From an uncultured Clostridia bacterium (lineage in GTDB: Bacteria > Bacillota > Clostridia > Christensenellales > CAG-917), in NCBI GenBank assembly GCA_944360115.1, contig CALVTH010000016.1, forward strand, positions 1-33,699: DNA of 33,699 nt, in the 5' to 3' direction. Positions within the stretch are counted from its first letter, which is position 1, and every line of letters begins with the position of its first letter. Positions 13,884-31,154 of the stretch are shown here, one piece after another. The translations under genes were made by a program, and so were the position numbers. The notes below the pieces were generated by a model. That model was not told where the DNA came from, searched no databases, and worked only from the letters and a program-made list of their open reading frames with translations.

Positions 13884-14795
13884 ATGTACGACATCGCCAT
13901 ACTCGGCGCGGGTCCTGCGGGACTGACGGCGGGAATATACGCCGCCCGCGGCGGAATGTCCGTCGCCGTAATCGAAAACCAAGCCCCCGGCGGACAAGCC
14001 GCCCTCACCGCCGAGATAGAAAACTACCCCGGCTTCGAGACCATAAGCGGCTTCGACCTCACCGCCCGTATGGTCGCCCAGTGCGAAAAACTCGGCGTCG
14101 TCTTCGTCTACGACAATCCCACGGAAATCGCCCTCAACGGCGATGTCAAAAAGATAACCACAGCCTATTCGGGCACGGTGGAAGCGCGCTCCGTAATAAT
14201 CGCCACGGGCGCCCTGCCCCGTCCCCTCGGCGTCCCCCGCGAAAGCGAACTCCTGGGCGGCGGCGTGTCCTACTGCGCCACCTGCGACGGAGCCTTTTTC
14301 CGCGGCAAACCCGTCGCGGTCGTGGGCGGCGGCAACACCGCCGTCGAAGACGCGCTGTACCTCGAACGCTTTGCCTCCGAAGTCTACCTCATTCACCGCA
14401 GAGACGCCCTGCGCGCCGACGCGCTTCTCTCCGACCGTGTTGCCAAAAGCACGGTTAAAATCCTGTGGGACACCGTCGTGACCGACCTCGTCGGCGCTCC
14501 CCGTCTGCAATCCCTCACCGTCAAGAATGTCAGGACGGGCGAAACCTCCTCCGTGCGCGTCGACGGATTCTTTATCGCCGCGGGCAGAAAACCCGCCTCC
14601 GACGGGCTGACGGGCGTCGCCCTCGACGAAAGCGGCTATGTCCTCACCGACGACGAAATGCGCACCAACATCGCGGGCGTGTTCGCCGCGGGCGATGTCA
14701 GGCGCAAATCTCTCCGCCAGGTGGTCACCGCCGCGGCGGACGGCGCTCTCGCCGCGGAAAACGCGGTGAAATATGTCGGCGCCCTCAAAGCGTAA
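13884..14795 (+). CDS. trxB: Thioredoxin reductase
   Basis: FAD enzyme that reduces thioredoxin with NADPH. 303 residues. FAD-binding GAGPAGLTA at 8-16, redox-active CATC at 131-134, NADPH-binding GGGNTAVEDALYL at 148-160 and HRRDALRA at 171-178, and the C-terminal FAD motif GVFAAGDV. The HRR pair is what is expected for NADPH preference. Start supported by GGAGG seven bases upstream. Transcribed alone, divergently from asnS, with a terminator about 110 bp downstream. No thioredoxin gene lies next to it. Confidence 0.96.
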   Translation: MYDIAILGAGPAGLTAGIYAARGGMSVAVIENQAPGGQAALTAEIENYPGFETISGFDLTARMVAQCEKLGVVFVYDNPTEIALNGDVKKITTAYSGTVEARSVIIATGALPRPLGVPRESELLGGGVSYCATCDGAFFRGKPVAVVGGGNTAVEDALYLERFASEVYLIHRRDALRADALLSDRVAKSTVKILWDTVVTDLVGAPRLQSLTVKNVRTGETSSVRVDGFFIAAGRKPASDGLTGVALDESGYVLTDDEMRTNIAGVFAAGDVRRKSLRQVVTAAADGALAAENAVKYVGALKA

Positions 14796-14927: not shown

Positions 14928-15254
14928 GTTTGTCTGTCCCCCGCAAATTCCGTCGCGGAGTCGTGCTATCCCGCTCTCCGCGCACCGCGCAAGGTTTCAC
15001 GCGAACTAAACGGGTCAACCGCCCTTTTTTTTTCGTTTTTTGCACCGAAAATTCGATTTTCCGCCGTTTCTCCTGAGTTTCGCACGATTTTCGCCGACTT
15101 TTTCGCCTTTCGTTGCCACTCGGAACGCTTTCACTCGCCCCGTGAAACATTACAAAACCGACATTTTTAATGATTCTTTAATGTTTTGATTACCACTTTT
15201 GTGGACTTTTTTTCGCGGTTTTGAAATTTTTTTGAAATTTTTTACAAAAACCCC

Positions 15255-15283
15255 TTGACATGAAATTCCGACGGTGCTATTAT
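15255..15283 (+). promoter_or_regulatory. Strong orphan sigma-A promoter with UP-element-like tracts
   Basis: Perfect -35 TTGACA (15255-15260), 17-bp spacer, -10 TATTAT (15278-15283). The 30 bp upstream (about 15219-15250) are repeated A and T tracts like the UP elements before stable-RNA promoters. No convincing protein gene follows on this strand. Predicted start of transcription is at about 15290, exactly the first base of a hairpin. Confidence 0.8.
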
Positions 15284-15289
15284 GCAACC

Positions 15290-15377
15290 GTAATCGAGAG
15301 GTTACTAAACACTGCTCATAATTTTCCCCCTTATCATAGCGAGACGCGTTGGGTTCCGACCCGACGCGTTTTGCTAT
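15290..15377 (+). ncRNA. Candidate structured small RNA from the orphan promoter
   Basis: Two hairpins follow the promoter. The first, 15290-15305, is a 6-bp stem with a GAGA (GNRA) tetraloop and begins at the predicted +1. A 30-nt less structured stretch containing CCCCC follows. The second, 15336-15377, is a 19-bp stem with a few G-T pairs and a TCCG loop. A T-run terminator does not follow, so the 3' end is unclear and the transcript may run on into the hairpin-rich region. It does not match 6S, tmRNA, RNase P or SRP features I could look for. The structures are seen directly; that this is a functional RNA is inference. Confidence 0.35.
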
Positions 15378-15898
15378 ACTCTTTGCCCACCCTCGCGGCA
15401 GGTTGTTGTAGCGCTCTCTCACGCGAGCGTGCGTGACATAGGTAGGACTTTTCAGGTGCACTGCATGAAACGGGAAGTTGCTGTGCCTCCCTCCTTCACT
15501 TCGGGCTTTCTCGAAATACAAGAAAAAGTTGTTGCCCCCCTCCTGCGGGTTCCCCCCGCTACCGTACCCCCTTGAAAGGGCACCCACGGTTGCGGGCGGG
15601 CACCTTCGGCACTCGCGCACAGCCTGTTCCTCGTTGCCGCTCCGCGCGGCAACGAAGTTATGCCACTTGCGGCGCGCCCGCCTACGGCGAATTACAACGG
15701 CGCGCCGCTTGCGTACTTTACGTCCTGCGCTCGGCGCTCACACGGTCGCCGCCTGTTGCGGCTCCACCCTATCAAACAGACATCGTGCATAAGAACGCTC
15801 GCTCGGGGTGTTCGTTTGCCGCCTGTTGCGGTTCGCGCTCCGAACAGGCAAACGTTTAGAACGGGTGAAAATTATGTTCTTCTCTTTGCAAAGGACAG
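15378..15898. other. Hairpin-rich gene-poor region, possible interspersed repeat
   Basis: No gene I can support. It holds perfect or near-perfect inverted repeats at 15631-15640/15646-15655 (10 bp), 15669-15678/15699-15708 (10 bp) and 15813-15820/15847-15854 (8 bp), separated by Pro/Gly/Arg-rich frames in several registers. A 36-codon frame at 15465-15575 has an AGGTG six bases before its ATG (start MKREVAVPPS), the only small frame here with a plausible ribosome site. The composition recalls multi-copy intergenic repeats of gut Clostridia, but that can only be tested against a genome. Confidence 0.4.
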
Positions 15899-16589
15899 GA
15901 ACGTGTAAAAGCGCGATATTTCGATGAAGAACGCTCAGCACACCTCAAAATTCTGCTACGCAGAAATTTCGGGGACCCCTATGCCGCCCGAACAGACGGG
16001 AGCATACTTTTGCGTATGTGACTGTTTGCGAGGGCGTTTGTGTTGACGCTGTATCACGCCAAACAGCGCGGTTTGGATAAGGCGGACACCCTGTTTGTCA
16101 TCGGGGAAAAATGATAGAAACGCTTAAAACCTCGATATTCCGATGAAAAACGAGGAAGAGCCGCCCGAACAGACAGGAGTGTTCTTGTCGTATGTGACTG
16201 CTCGCGGGCGTTTGTGTTGACGCTGTATCACGCCAAACAGCGCGGTTTGGATAAGGCGGACACCCTGTTTGTCATCGGAAAAAAATGAAAGAAACGCTTA
16301 AAACCGCGATATTTCGATGAAGAACAAGGAAGAGCCGCCCGAACAGACAGGAGCGTACTCAGCGTACACGACTGTTTGCGAGGGCGGCTCTGACAAAGTT
16401 ATTCGCGGAATAGCGCGGAGAACATCGACAATCCTGCGTCTTCTCTCCCCCCACGGAAAGAAACGTGTAAAACCTCGATATTCCGATGAAGAACAAGGAA
16501 GAGCCGCCCGAACAGACAGGAGCGTACTTGTCGTACGTGACTGTTTGAGAGGGCGGCTCTGACAAAGTTATTCGCGGAATAGCGCGGTT
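15899..16589. repeat. Four-copy tandem array of hairpin-forming units abutting pyrB
   Basis: Units begin at about 15899, 16117, 16291 and 16460 (periods 218, 174, 169; last unit about 130 bp). Each starts with a form of GAAACG..TAAAA, then CGATATT and CGATGAAGAAC, then an inverted repeat. In units 3 and 4 the outer arms are perfect, AGAGCCGCCC/GGGCGGCTCT (16331-16340/16382-16391 and 16500-16509/16551-16560), with inner arms AACAG/CTGTT and an apical stem. The apical stem is GCATAC/GTATGT in unit 1 and GCGTAC/GTACGT in unit 4, a paired change that keeps pairing. Unit 1 has an extra hairpin of about 44 bp (near 15946-15970). Units 1 and 2 share a nearly identical segment of about 75 bp at 16037 and 16211. 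The array ends a base or two before the pyrB stop codon, so it lies in the pyr operon 3' region. Confidence 0.85.
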
Positions 16590-17699
16590 TTACTTGTAGT
16601 GACCGAAGCGCGTCTCACAATACTCGCACCTGTAGATGTTGTGCGCCTGGTCGCGGAGCGAGAATTGCTGGGGAAGGTCGGTCTCGACGGCGGTGACGCA
16701 CTTGGGGTTGTGGCAGACAAAACCGTCTGCGGCGGTGTAAATCTTGCGGGGATTGGGCTCGGGGCAATAGCCCTTCTCGGCGTCGGAAAGGAAACGGAGA
16801 ATGAGCGCCATGCGCATAAACTTGCCGTACTCCACCTGTTTGAAATAACAGGCACGGGGGTCGTCGTCGACATCGACATTGATTTCCTTGACGCGCGGCA
16901 GGGGGTGAAGCACGCTCATGTGCTCGGGAGCGGCTTTCATTTTCTCGGCGTTGAGCACATAGCAGTCCTTCAGGCGCTCGTACTCGTCGAGGTCCTGAAA
17001 ACGCTCGCGCTGTATGCGGGTCATATAAAGCACATCGAGGTCGGCAATGCAGTCTTCGATGTCGGTGCAATGACTCCACACCGCACCACGGGGCTCCATA
17101 ATTTCGTAGCGCACATAGTTGGGTATGGTGAGTTCGGGGGGCGATATCATAACGAAACGGTTGCCCTCGTAGCGAGTGAGCGCATTTATGAGGGAGTGCA
17201 CCGTTCTGCCGTATTTGAGGTCGCCGCAGATACCTATCGTGAGATGGTCGAGCCTGCCGTGACGGTCCTTGATGGTGAGCAGGTCTGCGAGGGTCTGCGT
17301 GGGGTGACAATGCCCGCCGTCGCCCGCGTTGATGACGGGCACAATGCTGCGGCGGGAAGCCGCAAGCGCGGCGCCTTCGAGAGGATGACGCATTGCGATG
17401 ATGTCGGCATAAGCGCTGACGGTGCGTATGGTGTCCATAACGCTCTCGCCTTTGGTGGTGGAGCTGTTGGACGCGGAGGCAAACCCGAGAGCTTTGCCGC
17501 CGAGTTCCATCATGGCAGCTTCGAAGGAAAGGCGGGTGCGGGTGGACGGCTCGAAAAAGAGGGTGGCAATCTTCTTGCCCTCGCAGGCGTGAGCGTACTT
17601 CGCACGGTCGCGCATTATGTCTTCGGCGACGGCAAGTATGCCGTCTATTTCTTCCGTCGTCAGGTCGGAAATGTCGATGAGATGTCTGATACCTTTCAT
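16590..17699 (-). CDS. pyrB: Aspartate carbamoyltransferase fused to a PyrI-type zinc domain
   Basis: Condenses carbamoyl phosphate with aspartate in UMP synthesis. The catalytic chain spans about 1-308, with carbamoyl-phosphate loop FEPSTRTRLSFE at 49-60, a HCHPTQTLAD segment at 130-139 and HPLPR at 265-269. The last 60 residues are extra: Cys 329, 334, 358 and 361 have exactly the 5/24/3 spacing of the zinc site in E. coli PyrI (109, 114, 138, 141), and surrounding residues also match. The PyrI nucleotide-binding domain is absent, so CTP/ATP control of the classical kind is not expected; the zinc domain may hold subunits together. The ATG at 17699 was chosen because the family sequence begins there; its ribosome site (AAAGGCAAG) is weak. 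Last gene of the pyr operon, 100 bp after pyrE. Confidence 0.95.
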   Translation of the reverse strand: MKGIRHLIDISDLTTEEIDGILAVAEDIMRDRAKYAHACEGKKIATLFFEPSTRTRLSFEAAMMELGGKALGFASASNSSTTKGESVMDTIRTVSAYADIIAMRHPLEGAALAASRRSIVPVINAGDGGHCHPTQTLADLLTIKDRHGRLDHLTIGICGDLKYGRTVHSLINALTRYEGNRFVMISPPELTIPNYVRYEIMEPRGAVWSHCTDIEDCIADLDVLYMTRIQRERFQDLDEYERLKDCYVLNAEKMKAAPEHMSVLHPLPRVKEINVDVDDDPRACYFKQVEYGKFMRMALILRFLSDAEKGYCPEPNPRKIYTAADGFVCHNPKCVTAVETDLPQQFSLRDQAHNIYRCEYCETRFGHYK

Positions 17700-26901: not shown

Positions 26902-28851
26902 TTATTCGTCATCTCCCGAGGGAGCTTCGCCGAAGTATTCGCCTCCGCCGACCTCGTCGGCCGCGGGAGCCTCGTCGTCGTACGCGGGAGCCTCCTCATC
27001 GTACGCGGGAGTCTCCTCATCGTACACGGGAGTCTCCTCATCGTACACGGGAGCCGCGCCCGCCGCATCCGCCGCGGCGCCTGCCGTTTCGGTTGCGGGT
27101 TCGAGAGCCGCCGCCGCTTCCTCGGCGTCCTTCTTGATGCGGAGTTTGAACTCACGGCAACAGCTTGCCGCAAACACCGTCACAAGCGCGATTGCGCCGA
27201 CGATATACAGCCAGTTGCGCAGCGACATCACGGAGATGACCGCGCACAGCAGATTGTTGGACTGCAGCCATGTCATATCCTGATAGCCGAGCACGCCGTA
27301 GGTGACGCTCATCGGGAAGATGTTGATTTCGAGCAGACCGCTGTCGTTGATGCAAAGTCCGAGAGAGAGAGGTCTGCCACCGGTGGCGTCGTAAAGCACA
27401 TTCCCGAGACCGTCGAGCAGTCCTTCCACGATGCTGACATCGCCGACCTTGATTTCGGCAAGCAAGGGCACAAGGGTGTTGAGCGCGCCGTTGAGCAGTC
27501 CCGACATATCCAGCGAAGTGACCGCCATCGTCTTGCCGTCCATGTCGAGTATGCCCCACTTCATGGGCTGGCTGACATAGCCGCCTATGAGTTCGTCGCT
27601 GTCGTTGTAGCACGGCACGACGACGGCGCCCGCAAGCACTCTGGACACCTCGTTGTCTTCATAGAAGGCGGGGTTGACATAATAGGTGTTCTCGTAGTTG
27701 TTGACCTTGACGAGCGCATGGGAATAGTCGTTGAACAGTTCCTTGACGGCGTCCGCCATATACAGCTCGTAGTACATCGAAGTTATCGCCTCGACCTTCT
27801 GGCCGTCGACGGTGGCTTCGTAGGTGGGATAAATGAGGTTGTTGTTCTCGTCGAGCACCGCACGGGAGTCTTCGGAGAAGTCGCTGCTCTGGTCGAGTAT
27901 GAGTCGGAGCACGACGGGCACCGTCATTCTGCCCGAGGACTGAGCGTAGAGGATAAGGCTGTCGTCGTAGGTGACATAGCCGTCGTTGTGCATACTCGCA
28001 TAGTTCTTGTTGAACAGATACGAGATACGCTCGTTGCTCATGCCTTCCTGCGCGAGTTTGGTGTAGGTGTTCAGCGTGGCTTTGGAGACCGCAAGACCGA
28101 CCGCCAGACGCTCGATGTTGCCGATGGAACTGCCCGCCGTAGGCGAGTTGAGCATATAAGCGGGGTCACGCATAACCCAGCTGGTGTACACGAATTCGAA
28201 GTACTCCTGCTGCAGTTCGGGCAAGCCCGCGATGAGCGCGTCGTATTTCTCCTGCTGCACGGCGGAGTCGGAGTTGCTTATGATCTGTTCCAGCTGATTG
28301 AGGTAGCTGGAGTTGTAGGTGAACATATCCGAGCCGAAGGTGTCCGTCTGCGATACCAGCGTTTCGTATGCGTAGTCGGCTGAATAGTTGCCGTTGGCGA
28401 TGTTGTACATCACGAATCTGCGCACGAGGAAGGCGTTGGTCTCGGCCTGTTCTTCGTAGTTGTTCTCGAGGTCTTCTACCTTGAGGGTACCGGATGTCAG
28501 CGAGGACAGGATGTCGGGGAGCACCACATCGACGAGCGCGCCCACGAGGAAGGTGAGACACACAACCGTCACGATGAGGGCTATCGTCTGCCGTCTGATT
28601 GTCTTGCGGGACTTCTTGCGGGTGACGCAGAGCAGCACGATGAAGAACACCAGACACAGCACGCCGGCGAGAATCACGCCGACAAAGGGCCAGAAGGTGT
28701 AGTAAGGCACCATCTGATAGAACTGCACGGAGAACACCGCGGTGAGCACCACCAGCATGGGCATACCCACAAGATAGAGGAACACTTCCAACAGGGTGAG
28801 GCCTGCGACTTTTCTGTTGACGGATTTCCTGATGTCGTTAGTCATAGTCAC
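26902..28851 (-). CDS. Membrane-anchored protein with large extracytoplasmic domain and YDEE-repeat tail, unknown
   Basis: 649 residues, no family recognised. Three N-terminal membrane segments (about 18-44, 52-77, 88-112), a region of about 430 residues likely outside the cell, a fourth segment (about 546-563) and an 84-residue acidic cytoplasmic-type tail with four 7-residue repeats of the form P-V/A-Y-D-E/D-E-T/A (601-628). The N-terminal part resembles that of the upstream gene: VN.K at the start, Y..G.P..V in segment 1, and D-hydrophobic-VLP after segment 3, so the two look like distant paralogues. Start: GTG at 28851 overlaps the upstream stop (GTGA) with AGGAGG 4 bases before; an ATG at 28845 is the alternative. 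Function unknown; an envelope role is a guess. Confidence 0.75.
   Translation of the reverse strand: MTMTNDIRKSVNRKVAGLTLLEVFLYLVGMPMLVVLTAVFSVQFYQMVPYYTFWPFVGVILAGVLCLVFFIVLLCVTRKKSRKTIRRQTIALIVTVVCLTFLVGALVDVVLPDILSSLTSGTLKVEDLENNYEEQAETNAFLVRRFVMYNIANGNYSADYAYETLVSQTDTFGSDMFTYNSSYLNQLEQIISNSDSAVQQEKYDALIAGLPELQQEYFEFVYTSWVMRDPAYMLNSPTAGSSIGNIERLAVGLAVSKATLNTYTKLAQEGMSNERISYLFNKNYASMHNDGYVTYDDSLILYAQSSGRMTVPVVLRLILDQSSDFSEDSRAVLDENNNLIYPTYEATVDGQKVEAITSMYYELYMADAVKELFNDYSHALVKVNNYENTYYVNPAFYEDNEVSRVLAGAVVVPCYNDSDELIGGYVSQPMKWGILDMDGKTMAVTSLDMSGLLNGALNTLVPLLAEIKVGDVSIVEGLLDGLGNVLYDATGGRPLSLGLCINDSGLLEINIFPMSVTYGVLGYQDMTWLQSNNLLCAVISVMSLRNWLYIVGAIALVTVFAASCCREFKLRIKKDAEEAAAALEPATETAGAAADAAGAAPVYDEETPVYDEETPAYDEEAPAYDDEAPAADEVGGGEYFGEAPSGDDE
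26968..27051 (-). repeat. Four 21-bp coding tandem repeats
   Basis: Encode the P-V/A-Y-D-E/D-E-T/A heptads in the tail of the overlapping membrane protein. Copies 1 and 2 encode VYDEET and copies 3 and 4 AYDEEA or AYDDEA. Near-identity suggests recent expansion and possible copy-number variation. Confidence 0.85.
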
Positions 28852-31154
28852 TCCACCTCCTTTCCGTTATTTTCTTCGGCAAGGGTCTCGGTGCCCTCCT
28901 CCGCTTCGGGCTGTACCGTCGGTTCTCCGACAATATCGGCCGCGGGTTCCACGAACGCTTCGGTGCGTTCCACGGGGGTGTCCGTCTCTTCGGGCTTGGA
29001 GAATTCCTCTTCGACCGCGGGCAGAGCCGCCTCCGCTTTCGCCGCCGCCTTATCCGCTTTCTTTGCTTTCTTCTTCTTGGCGGGGGTGTCGTCCTGACCC
29101 GTCTCTAGCAGCCACTCTTTCTCCGCCGCTATGCCGCTGGCTATCAGCGCGAACACCACGACGGGAAGGAACGCAAGAAGGAGATTGCGCACCATGTAGA
29201 GCGGATAGTACACGGGCTTGTAGGAGAGGTCTGTCTGCAACTGAACGACCGCGGCATAGGAGCCGAGTCCCATGGAGGACGGCATACCCGAACCGATGTT
29301 GTCGCCCGCGATGAGGGAGACGCCGGGGATAAGCGTGGAGCCTATCATGTATCCGTGCCAGCCGCCGTTGTAAACCGCCTTGTCGAGCATGCAGTAGTAG
29401 GAAGCGAGTTCGGTGTCGTAGCCGAGGCTTTCCGCCGCCTCTTCGTAGTAGTCGTAGACGGGAATGATTTCGGGGTCGCAGTACCAGTACAGACCGCCGA
29501 GCAGGTTCATGACTATTTTTTCGAGCACTTCGCCCGTGGACATGGTCTTGTCGACGCCGACAAACAGCGAGGACAGGTCGAGACCGAACAGTCCGAGAAT
29601 GCTGTTGAGGTTCAATCCGAGGATAAGATCCTTGCTGAGCAGATCGTACAGCCAGGCGCCGATGCTGAGCCCGCCCGTACCGACGGGAATGACGCCGCTC
29701 TTCACCAGACCGTCGAGCAGGTCGCCGAGCGCATACAGAATGTTGCCGTTGAGCTGAATGTTGGAGGCATCGCCCGTCGCGGGTTGGTAACGGATGAGCA
29801 GACCTTCCGTGACGCCTTCGCCGTATGTGTTGTTCGCGACATCCGCGGCGGTCACGACGAGAATGGACAGGGTGCCGTCGCCGACGGGGAAGGACAGGCT
29901 GACGCCGAAGGTGTCGGTGATGAGCCCGAGCAACGAACTGATGACGACATTGTTGCCGATGTGGCTGCCGACGGAGTTAAGCAACTGAGTGAGTTTGCCG
30001 ACCGTCATGGAGAAGCCCTCTTCGGTGCCGCCGCTGCCGCCTACCTTGACATAGTTGTGCCAGATTTCGTACTTCTCGGTGCCCACCTCGCTGTAATCTT
30101 TTTCCTGCAGCCTGAGCGCCTCGGCGTAAATGGCGTTGTAAATCGCGTCGCTGCCGCCCAGTTCGCTTATCTTCATCTGGGAGTAGTAGTACTGACGGAG
30201 AACTTCGAGCGCGGTGTCGATACCGAAGACATAGCCGTCGGAGAGCAGACCGTTGGCGTTGTAACTCGCCATACCGTAAACGCCCTCTTTATACTCGGAG
30301 TCGCGGGAAGTCTTGTACCAGCGGAAAATCTTGTATCCCGTCGTCGCGCTGCCCGTGGTGCCGCTGGGAAGAGACGGAGAATAGGACGCGCTGGTGTAAT
30401 TCTCGTACACCACGCCGTCTATCTCGAGTTTTCCGTCCGCATTCGGGGGAACACGCACGAAATCGTGGTCGGTGCCCGTGCCGTCGCCGTACTGTTTCTT
30501 CAGTTCGAGGATACGCTCTTCGGAGAGCTTATTGATTACTTTGCCGTCTTCGTCGACATTGTACAGGCTCTCGTAGGTGACGGGAATGTTGCTGGTGTTG
30601 TCCGCAAGACCCGATTTCGTGCCGTCGTAGTAGCCGATGTTATACGCTCTGGTGACGGACGATACCTGACTGAGGAAAGAGTGTGCGTCGCCTATGGGAC
30701 TGCCCGTCTTGCCGACGAGGTCGGACAACTGCAGACCGTAGGACTTGACGGTCACGCCCTCGGGCGCCGTCGCCTGTATATCCGCGAGGTTGGCGGGAAG
30801 CACGATGTCCATGACGACAATGGGCACACCCATTGCGAGCAGCGCAATCACCGCAACGATGACCGTGCGCGCACGCCTGTTGTGCATGGTCTTGCGGAGA
30901 ATGACTTGCACGACGGCGACGAGAAGCCACACGCCGAATGCAATCCAGATTCCGTAAGGACCCGAACCGGTGACCTGATTTTGCAACCAGATGACCGTCG
31001 TCGAACCGCCCGAGCCCATATAGGGGTCTTCGCCGGCAAAAAGCCAAGTCATCGTTATGATAACGGCGAAAACGAAGAGCGGAAGCCCAAGGCAGTAAAA
31101 GAGCACTTTCAAGTTGCGGTAGAATTTAATCTTTCCGTTGACGCTCCGTTCCAT
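28848..31154 (-). CDS. Large membrane-anchored protein, paralogue-like to the next gene, unknown
   Basis: 768 residues, no family recognised. Membrane segments at about 16-40, 68-87 and 96-116 are followed by about 540 residues that are likely extracytoplasmic, rich in Gly, Ser, Thr and Tyr, with leucine-rich amphipathic stretches (for example ILGLNLNSILGLFGLDLSSL, about 525-545). A fourth segment (about 655-676) leads to a charged tail with a Lys/Ala-rich part (KKKKAKKADKAAAK) and then a Glu/Pro-rich part. The plan is the same as the 649-residue protein encoded next, with which it overlaps by 4 bases. AAGGAG lies six bases before the ATG. The two proteins may form a complex; no enzymatic motif was seen. 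Confidence 0.75.
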   Translation of the reverse strand: MERSVNGKIKFYRNLKVLFYCLGLPLFVFAVIITMTWLFAGEDPYMGSGGSTTVIWLQNQVTGSGPYGIWIAFGVWLLVAVVQVILRKTMHNRRARTVIVAVIALLAMGVPIVVMDIVLPANLADIQATAPEGVTVKSYGLQLSDLVGKTGSPIGDAHSFLSQVSSVTRAYNIGYYDGTKSGLADNTSNIPVTYESLYNVDEDGKVINKLSEERILELKKQYGDGTGTDHDFVRVPPNADGKLEIDGVVYENYTSASYSPSLPSGTTGSATTGYKIFRWYKTSRDSEYKEGVYGMASYNANGLLSDGYVFGIDTALEVLRQYYYSQMKISELGGSDAIYNAIYAEALRLQEKDYSEVGTEKYEIWHNYVKVGGSGGTEEGFSMTVGKLTQLLNSVGSHIGNNVVISSLLGLITDTFGVSLSFPVGDGTLSILVVTAADVANNTYGEGVTEGLLIRYQPATGDASNIQLNGNILYALGDLLDGLVKSGVIPVGTGGLSIGAWLYDLLSKDLILGLNLNSILGLFGLDLSSLFVGVDKTMSTGEVLEKIVMNLLGGLYWYCDPEIIPVYDYYEEAAESLGYDTELASYYCMLDKAVYNGGWHGYMIGSTLIPGVSLIAGDNIGSGMPSSMGLGSYAAVVQLQTDLSYKPVYYPLYMVRNLLLAFLPVVVFALIASGIAAEKEWLLETGQDDTPAKKKKAKKADKAAAKAEAALPAVEEEFSKPEETDTPVERTEAFVEPAADIVGEPTVQPEAEEGTETLAEENNGKEVE

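Follow-up and report, generated by a model that had tools for sequence, protein, structure and literature searches.

What does a strong promoter transcribe when it points at no protein gene? This question was raised by the gap between trxB and pyrB in the window, by which we mean the whole 33,699-nt stretch of clostridial DNA that was analyzed. trxB ends at about position 14795, pyrB starts at 16590 on the opposite strand, and no gene lies in between. The first-pass annotation had described in this gap a perfect TTGACA, a 17-bp spacer and TATTAT, preceded by A/T tracts and followed by two hairpins, and had suggested an abundant structured RNA. The features of the locus are as follows.

15255-15377 (+): candidate sRNA gene, consisting of promoter, 5' hairpin, 30-nt unpaired linker and terminator hairpin; RNA of ~90 nt
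15219..15252 (+): A/T tracts resembling a UP element, 5' of the -35 box; genus relatives are also A/T-rich here
15255..15283 (+): promoter, TTGACA, 17 bp, TGcTATTAT (extended -10); conserved in all genus copies
15290..15305 (+): 5' hairpin, 6 bp, GAGA loop; stem begins at the predicted +1, covaries in the family and is absent in other lineages
15314..15338 (+): 25-nt unpaired seed, GCTCATAATTTTCCCCCTTATCATA; near-invariant, with an anti-AUG (CAU) and an anti-SD (CCCCCUU)
15336..15377 (+): 3' hairpin, 19 bp, TCCG loop; U-rich TTTTGC in and after the 3' arm; intrinsic terminator

The locus is a probable, previously uncatalogued sRNA gene, as judged from its sequence.

Promoter and fold of the candidate gene

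The -35 box (TTGACA, 15255-15260) and the -10 box (TATTAT, 15278-15283) are separated by 17 bp and match the consensus at 11 of 12 positions, and a TG precedes the -10 box. Shuffled sequence contained a mean of 0.8 promoter sites of ≥9/12 per 1.8 kb. The predicted +1 is G15290. Anatomy was counted in 140 non-identical copies, and a -10-like box was found upstream of the seed in 135 of them. The annotated boxes, spacer and A/T tracts were thus all recovered, and the predicted promoter is a strong, A/T-flanked one that is conserved within the genus. The sRNA gene has its own promoter and lies outside any operon.

The minimum free energy fold and the centroid fold both consisted of exactly the two hairpins that had been proposed, with 6 bp at the +1 and 19 bp located 30 nt later (z = -6.7; 0/200 shuffles equally stable). 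Positions 15306-15335, between the hairpins, were unpaired in the predicted fold. A strong hairpin was present directly 3' of the seed in 133 of 140 copies, compared to 2 of 140 shuffled ones, and U-rich sequence follows it across copies, which identifies it as an intrinsic terminator. Covariation was detected in the 3' hairpin, with 12 of 16 pairs retained through two-sided changes in a 13-sequence set, and stem variants of the 5' hairpin occur in the family (GTAATC/GGTTAC, GTGATC/GGTCAC and GCAATC/GATTGC). In lineages without the 5' hairpin, the -10 box is close to the seed. As the 5' hairpin is variable or missing and the seed and 3' hairpin are kept, the functional unit would be the unpaired seed plus the terminator. 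Folding of the seed itself into an internal hairpin (AUAA/UUAU) was rejected; this hairpin was absent from the predicted fold and is broken by the common CATCAT variant.

A search with blastn of 15150-15500 detected a match in 19 of 31 relatives, in which the layout of promoter, hairpin, linker and hairpin was kept; conservation of the region with this layout indicated that the feature is not due to chance. Covariance models of 6S, tmRNA, RNase P and SRP RNA gave no match to the locus, in agreement with the first-pass annotation, and an Rfam scan, which included RoxS/RsaE and all other sRNA families, gave no match at the gathering threshold and only noise or chance-level matches at E<5. The exact seed sequence was not found in the literature searched. 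The earlier suggestion of a structured RNA was partly right: the evidence points to a conserved noncoding RNA from an orphan strong promoter, but structure is not its chief feature, as the long hairpin serves as a terminator, while the 5' hairpin varies and many copies lack it. The emphasis on hairpins was misplaced, since conservation is centered on the unpaired linker of 30 nt with its anti-SD/anti-AUG seed, which had been passed over.

Some minor observations were made in the same regions. Loci L079, L113, L097 and similar ones carry a near-palindrome, TGTAAATAAGATTTACA, around the predicted +1 of the sRNA gene, which may be read either as a 5' hairpin or as a repressor operator. The remainder of the trxB-pyrB gap (15983-16555) is occupied by a 174-bp unit repeated ∼3.3 times in tandem, with copies that are 80% alike, and no gene was called there; a 43-nt piece occurs four times from 15890. 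Elsewhere in the window, two large predicted membrane proteins are encoded by an adjacent pair of genes at 26905-28845 (-) and 28848-31154 (-), the first of which had no match in a Pfam search.

Conservation and distribution of the seed

The reverse complement of the seed, TATGATAAGGGGGAAAATTATGAGC, reads as an SD (AAGGGGG) followed, after a 6-nt spacer, by an ATG. Because this is a strong SD plus ATG at normal spacing, the seed is, from its sequence, an anti-ribosome-binding-site element (anti-SD plus anti-AUG). In nine other genomes of the genus, the surrounding DNA was ∼70 to 80% identical and the 25-mer was unchanged; hairpin sequences drifted with pairing kept while the linker 25-mer stayed near-invariant. 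Among the 140 copies, the most variable seed positions were 7 (A or C) and 22 (C or T). Natural variants differed in the nucleotide next to CAT or in the number of U residues between anti-AUG and anti-SD, which varied by plus or minus one, and left the anti-SD and anti-AUG intact. As the spacing from SD to start varies in the same way, this pattern fits an anti-ribosome-binding site and excludes a conserved reading frame. Three or five U residues instead of four were seen in L448 (genome G024) and L445-L447 (G398, G394 and G011), and the U-run length could covary with the SD-to-start spacing of those genera.

Alternatively, the 25-mer could be recognized by an RNA-binding protein for which the RNA acts as a sponge or scaffold, the complementarity to ribosome-binding sites being a by-product. 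A length of 25 nt exceeds most pairing seeds, and the element is almost frozen over many families, as would be expected of a protein-binding site, but its variation preserves exactly the anti-SD and anti-AUG, and matches to the seed are seen at target starts of many genera. We consider this explanation improbable.

Distribution of the seed was examined by several searches. A scan of 84,980 species for the exact 25-mer, which demands identity and is hence no measure of conservation, detected 105 stretches, and every one came from a record whose title named a Clostridia, Christensenella-type or Eubacteriales genome. With up to 3 mismatches, the seed was present in 31 of 101 genomes distributed across the order, which is a lower bound, and a search with mismatches was positive for 21 of 26 further genomes of the family. 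A covariance model, which came out without base pairs and was applied as a sequence model only, added three genomes, all from a single genus in which the spacer is U5, as well as clear matches in a few more families. Combining genus, mismatch and sequence-model matches, the sRNA gene is present in ∼38 of the 40 genomes that represent the window's family; the two without it are 54% and 72% complete. When up to 2 mismatches were allowed, none of 277 genomes from other orders of Clostridia contained the seed. By these searches, the predicted sRNA is order-wide in mostly uncultured gut Clostridia and limited to one order. Viral carriage was also considered and rejected, as IMG/VR viral contigs contained no exact match to the seed.

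In the window's family the sRNA gene lies near the 3' end of trxB, and in several other families trxB is convergent to it, on the other strand. Adjacency to trxB (thioredoxin reductase) was observed in L002-L131 and others, and in either orientation the 3' end of trxB was the one turned toward the sRNA gene. Proximity to trxB in several families supports common descent of the locus. The gene order also bears on whether the RNA is a cis-acting leader, attenuator or riboswitch, or a short coding RNA. Promoter, structure and a terminator-like hairpin do resemble an attenuator, but no gene follows on the same strand for >1.2 kb in the window, and in several other families the gene that comes next is trxB, which lies on the opposite strand and converges on the sRNA gene; single-U insertions and deletions in the seed rule out a conserved reading frame. 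Both the cis-acting and the coding forms were rejected, leaving this class of explanation with a very low probability.

Predicted targets and their replication

For prediction of targets, 1.38 Mb of the home genome was retrieved, 1,182 genes were called and 1,161 starts were ranked by duplex energy. A single other place in this genome matched the 22-nt complement within 3 mismatches, namely, the ribosome-binding site and start of a GH31 glucosidase, which was the best complement of the seed, with 18 contiguous pairs. A GPH transporter gene closely downstream of it ranked 15th. Four of the eight GPH transporters (PF13347) were in the top 30 of 1,161 starts (P = 2e-5). Sugar genes defined by Pfam (transporters, glycosidases, kinases and isomerases) made up 11 of 37 top starts but 2 of 38 random ones (P = 0.005), a category that was noticed only after ranking; the GPH test was later repeated on new genes. 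Genome-wide, the best duplex energies at home genome starts were not above those of shuffled seeds. Single targets are therefore not certain, and absolute duplex energy was discarded as proof of a target. An order-wide search for near-perfect targets starting with ATGAAA yielded few and no coherent set; two were sRNA loci themselves.

The GPH prediction was next examined in further genomes. A first set of GPH starts from other genomes of the window's family had values of -19.4 versus -13.4 kcal/mol (0/200 shuffled seeds). For 20 extra GPH starts from the genus and 40 from other genera of the family, the values were -18.2 versus -13.0 kcal/mol and -18.6 versus -13.8 kcal/mol, respectively, with 0/500 shuffled seeds as good in each case. 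GPH starts were also stronger than the starts of other genes within the family (P = 1e-7, with start codons picked by SD strength and a small sample of 49 background starts). A much weaker signal was detected in other sRNA-bearing families (-13.1 versus -10.9; 0/200), and hence the regulon may differ there. Order genomes classed as sRNA lacking gave -12.7 versus -11.2 (11/200), a set defined by pattern search in which the sequence model later found divergent sRNA copies in a few genomes. A GPH regulon is thus well supported by predicted pairing in the window's family and weakly outside it.

These data bear on a second possibility, that an sRNA of this kind acts as a general anti-ribosome-binding-site regulator, or as one directed otherwise, the sugar genes merely having ribosome-binding sites of the AAGGGGGAAATTATG type. 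The seed does resemble an anti-consensus ribosome-binding site, duplex energies over all starts are unexceptional and the GPH signal in other families is weak. However, among 13 sugar genes, a set chosen after the ranking list was seen, the real seed placed 7 in the top 30, compared to at most 4 for 60 flank-shuffled seeds keeping CCCCCUUA, while an anti-canonical-SD seed ranked 2 of 13 high and the 16S tail 1 of 13. Within the family, GPH starts are also distinct from the remaining starts. We regard a general regulator as rather unlikely, although less so than a protein-binding site.

The favored and likely explanation is a promoter-driven, terminator-ended trans-acting sRNA of ~90 nt whose seed would block the SD and AUG of mainly carbohydrate uptake and catabolism mRNAs. 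An own promoter, an unpaired seed, an intrinsic terminator and unlinked complementary mRNAs, by which trans-acting base-pairing sRNAs are generally recognized, were all found. Once transcribed, the RNA would pair in vivo through its unpaired 25-nt seed with translation initiation regions, covering SD and AUG together, and so would block 30S binding and ribosome loading; pairing may also destabilize the mRNA. The outcome would be repression: the sRNA probably shuts down translation of sugar transporter and sugar enzyme messages, and in the window's family the predicted regulon comprises GPH/MFS_2 sugar transporters, glycoside hydrolases and sugar kinases. We infer that some signal acting at the sRNA promoter would lower sugar uptake and glycan catabolism. 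More speculatively, and with somewhat less than an even chance in our estimation, this could be an order-wide master sRNA whose frozen anti-ribosome-binding-site seed sets the priority of carbohydrate use, a form of posttranscriptional carbon catabolite control, with the start regions of sugar genes having evolved to match.

Comparison with known sRNAs

The closest likeness in design was to the csRNAs of the streptococcal CiaRH regulon (PMC3091779, PMC4507080), which are also short RNAs with a 5' hairpin, an unpaired anti-SD plus anti-AUG and a 3' terminator hairpin, occur in several copies in some genomes and have transporters among their targets. The clostridial RNA shares their unpaired anti-SD and anti-AUG beside a terminator hairpin. 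However, csRNAs are defined by a CiaR-activated promoter, TTTAAG-N5-TTTAAG, with the -10 box ten bases on (PMC3091779), whereas the promoter here is an ordinary sigma-70-type TTGACA-N17-TATTAT without the CiaR direct repeat at the required place. Exact matches were all in Clostridia-type MAGs and not in streptococci, the seed is restricted to one order, which is not that of the csRNAs, and differs from theirs, and most genomes have one copy. The predicted sRNA would work like the csRNAs, yet its sequence sets it apart as a family of its own. RoxS/RsaE and other C-rich sRNAs of Firmicutes (PMC8216469, PMC5419742, PMC9410917) likewise have a C-rich unpaired region pairing with the SD and targets in central metabolism, but theirs are separate C-rich loops, whereas one continuous seed also covers the AUG here. 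What is notable is the order-wide, almost frozen seed. Such conservation is far beyond what sRNAs usually show. The locus would represent an uncatalogued RNA gene that occurs throughout a large order of gut bacteria for which metagenomes are almost the only source of knowledge, and a new family for Rfam and MAG annotation, with a predicted regulon, made up of sugar transporters and glycosidases, that is open to testing.

The LhrC multicopy sRNAs of Listeria (PMC4132741) offer an architectural parallel only, that of sibling copies in one genome; the clostridial sRNA is mostly single copy, and the sequence comparison was the Rfam scan only. Five sRNA copies were present in genome G046, on contigs C2 and C6, and two copies with different terminators were in tandem on one contig in L091, at 4465 and 4673. 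These multicopy versions resemble sibling sRNAs.
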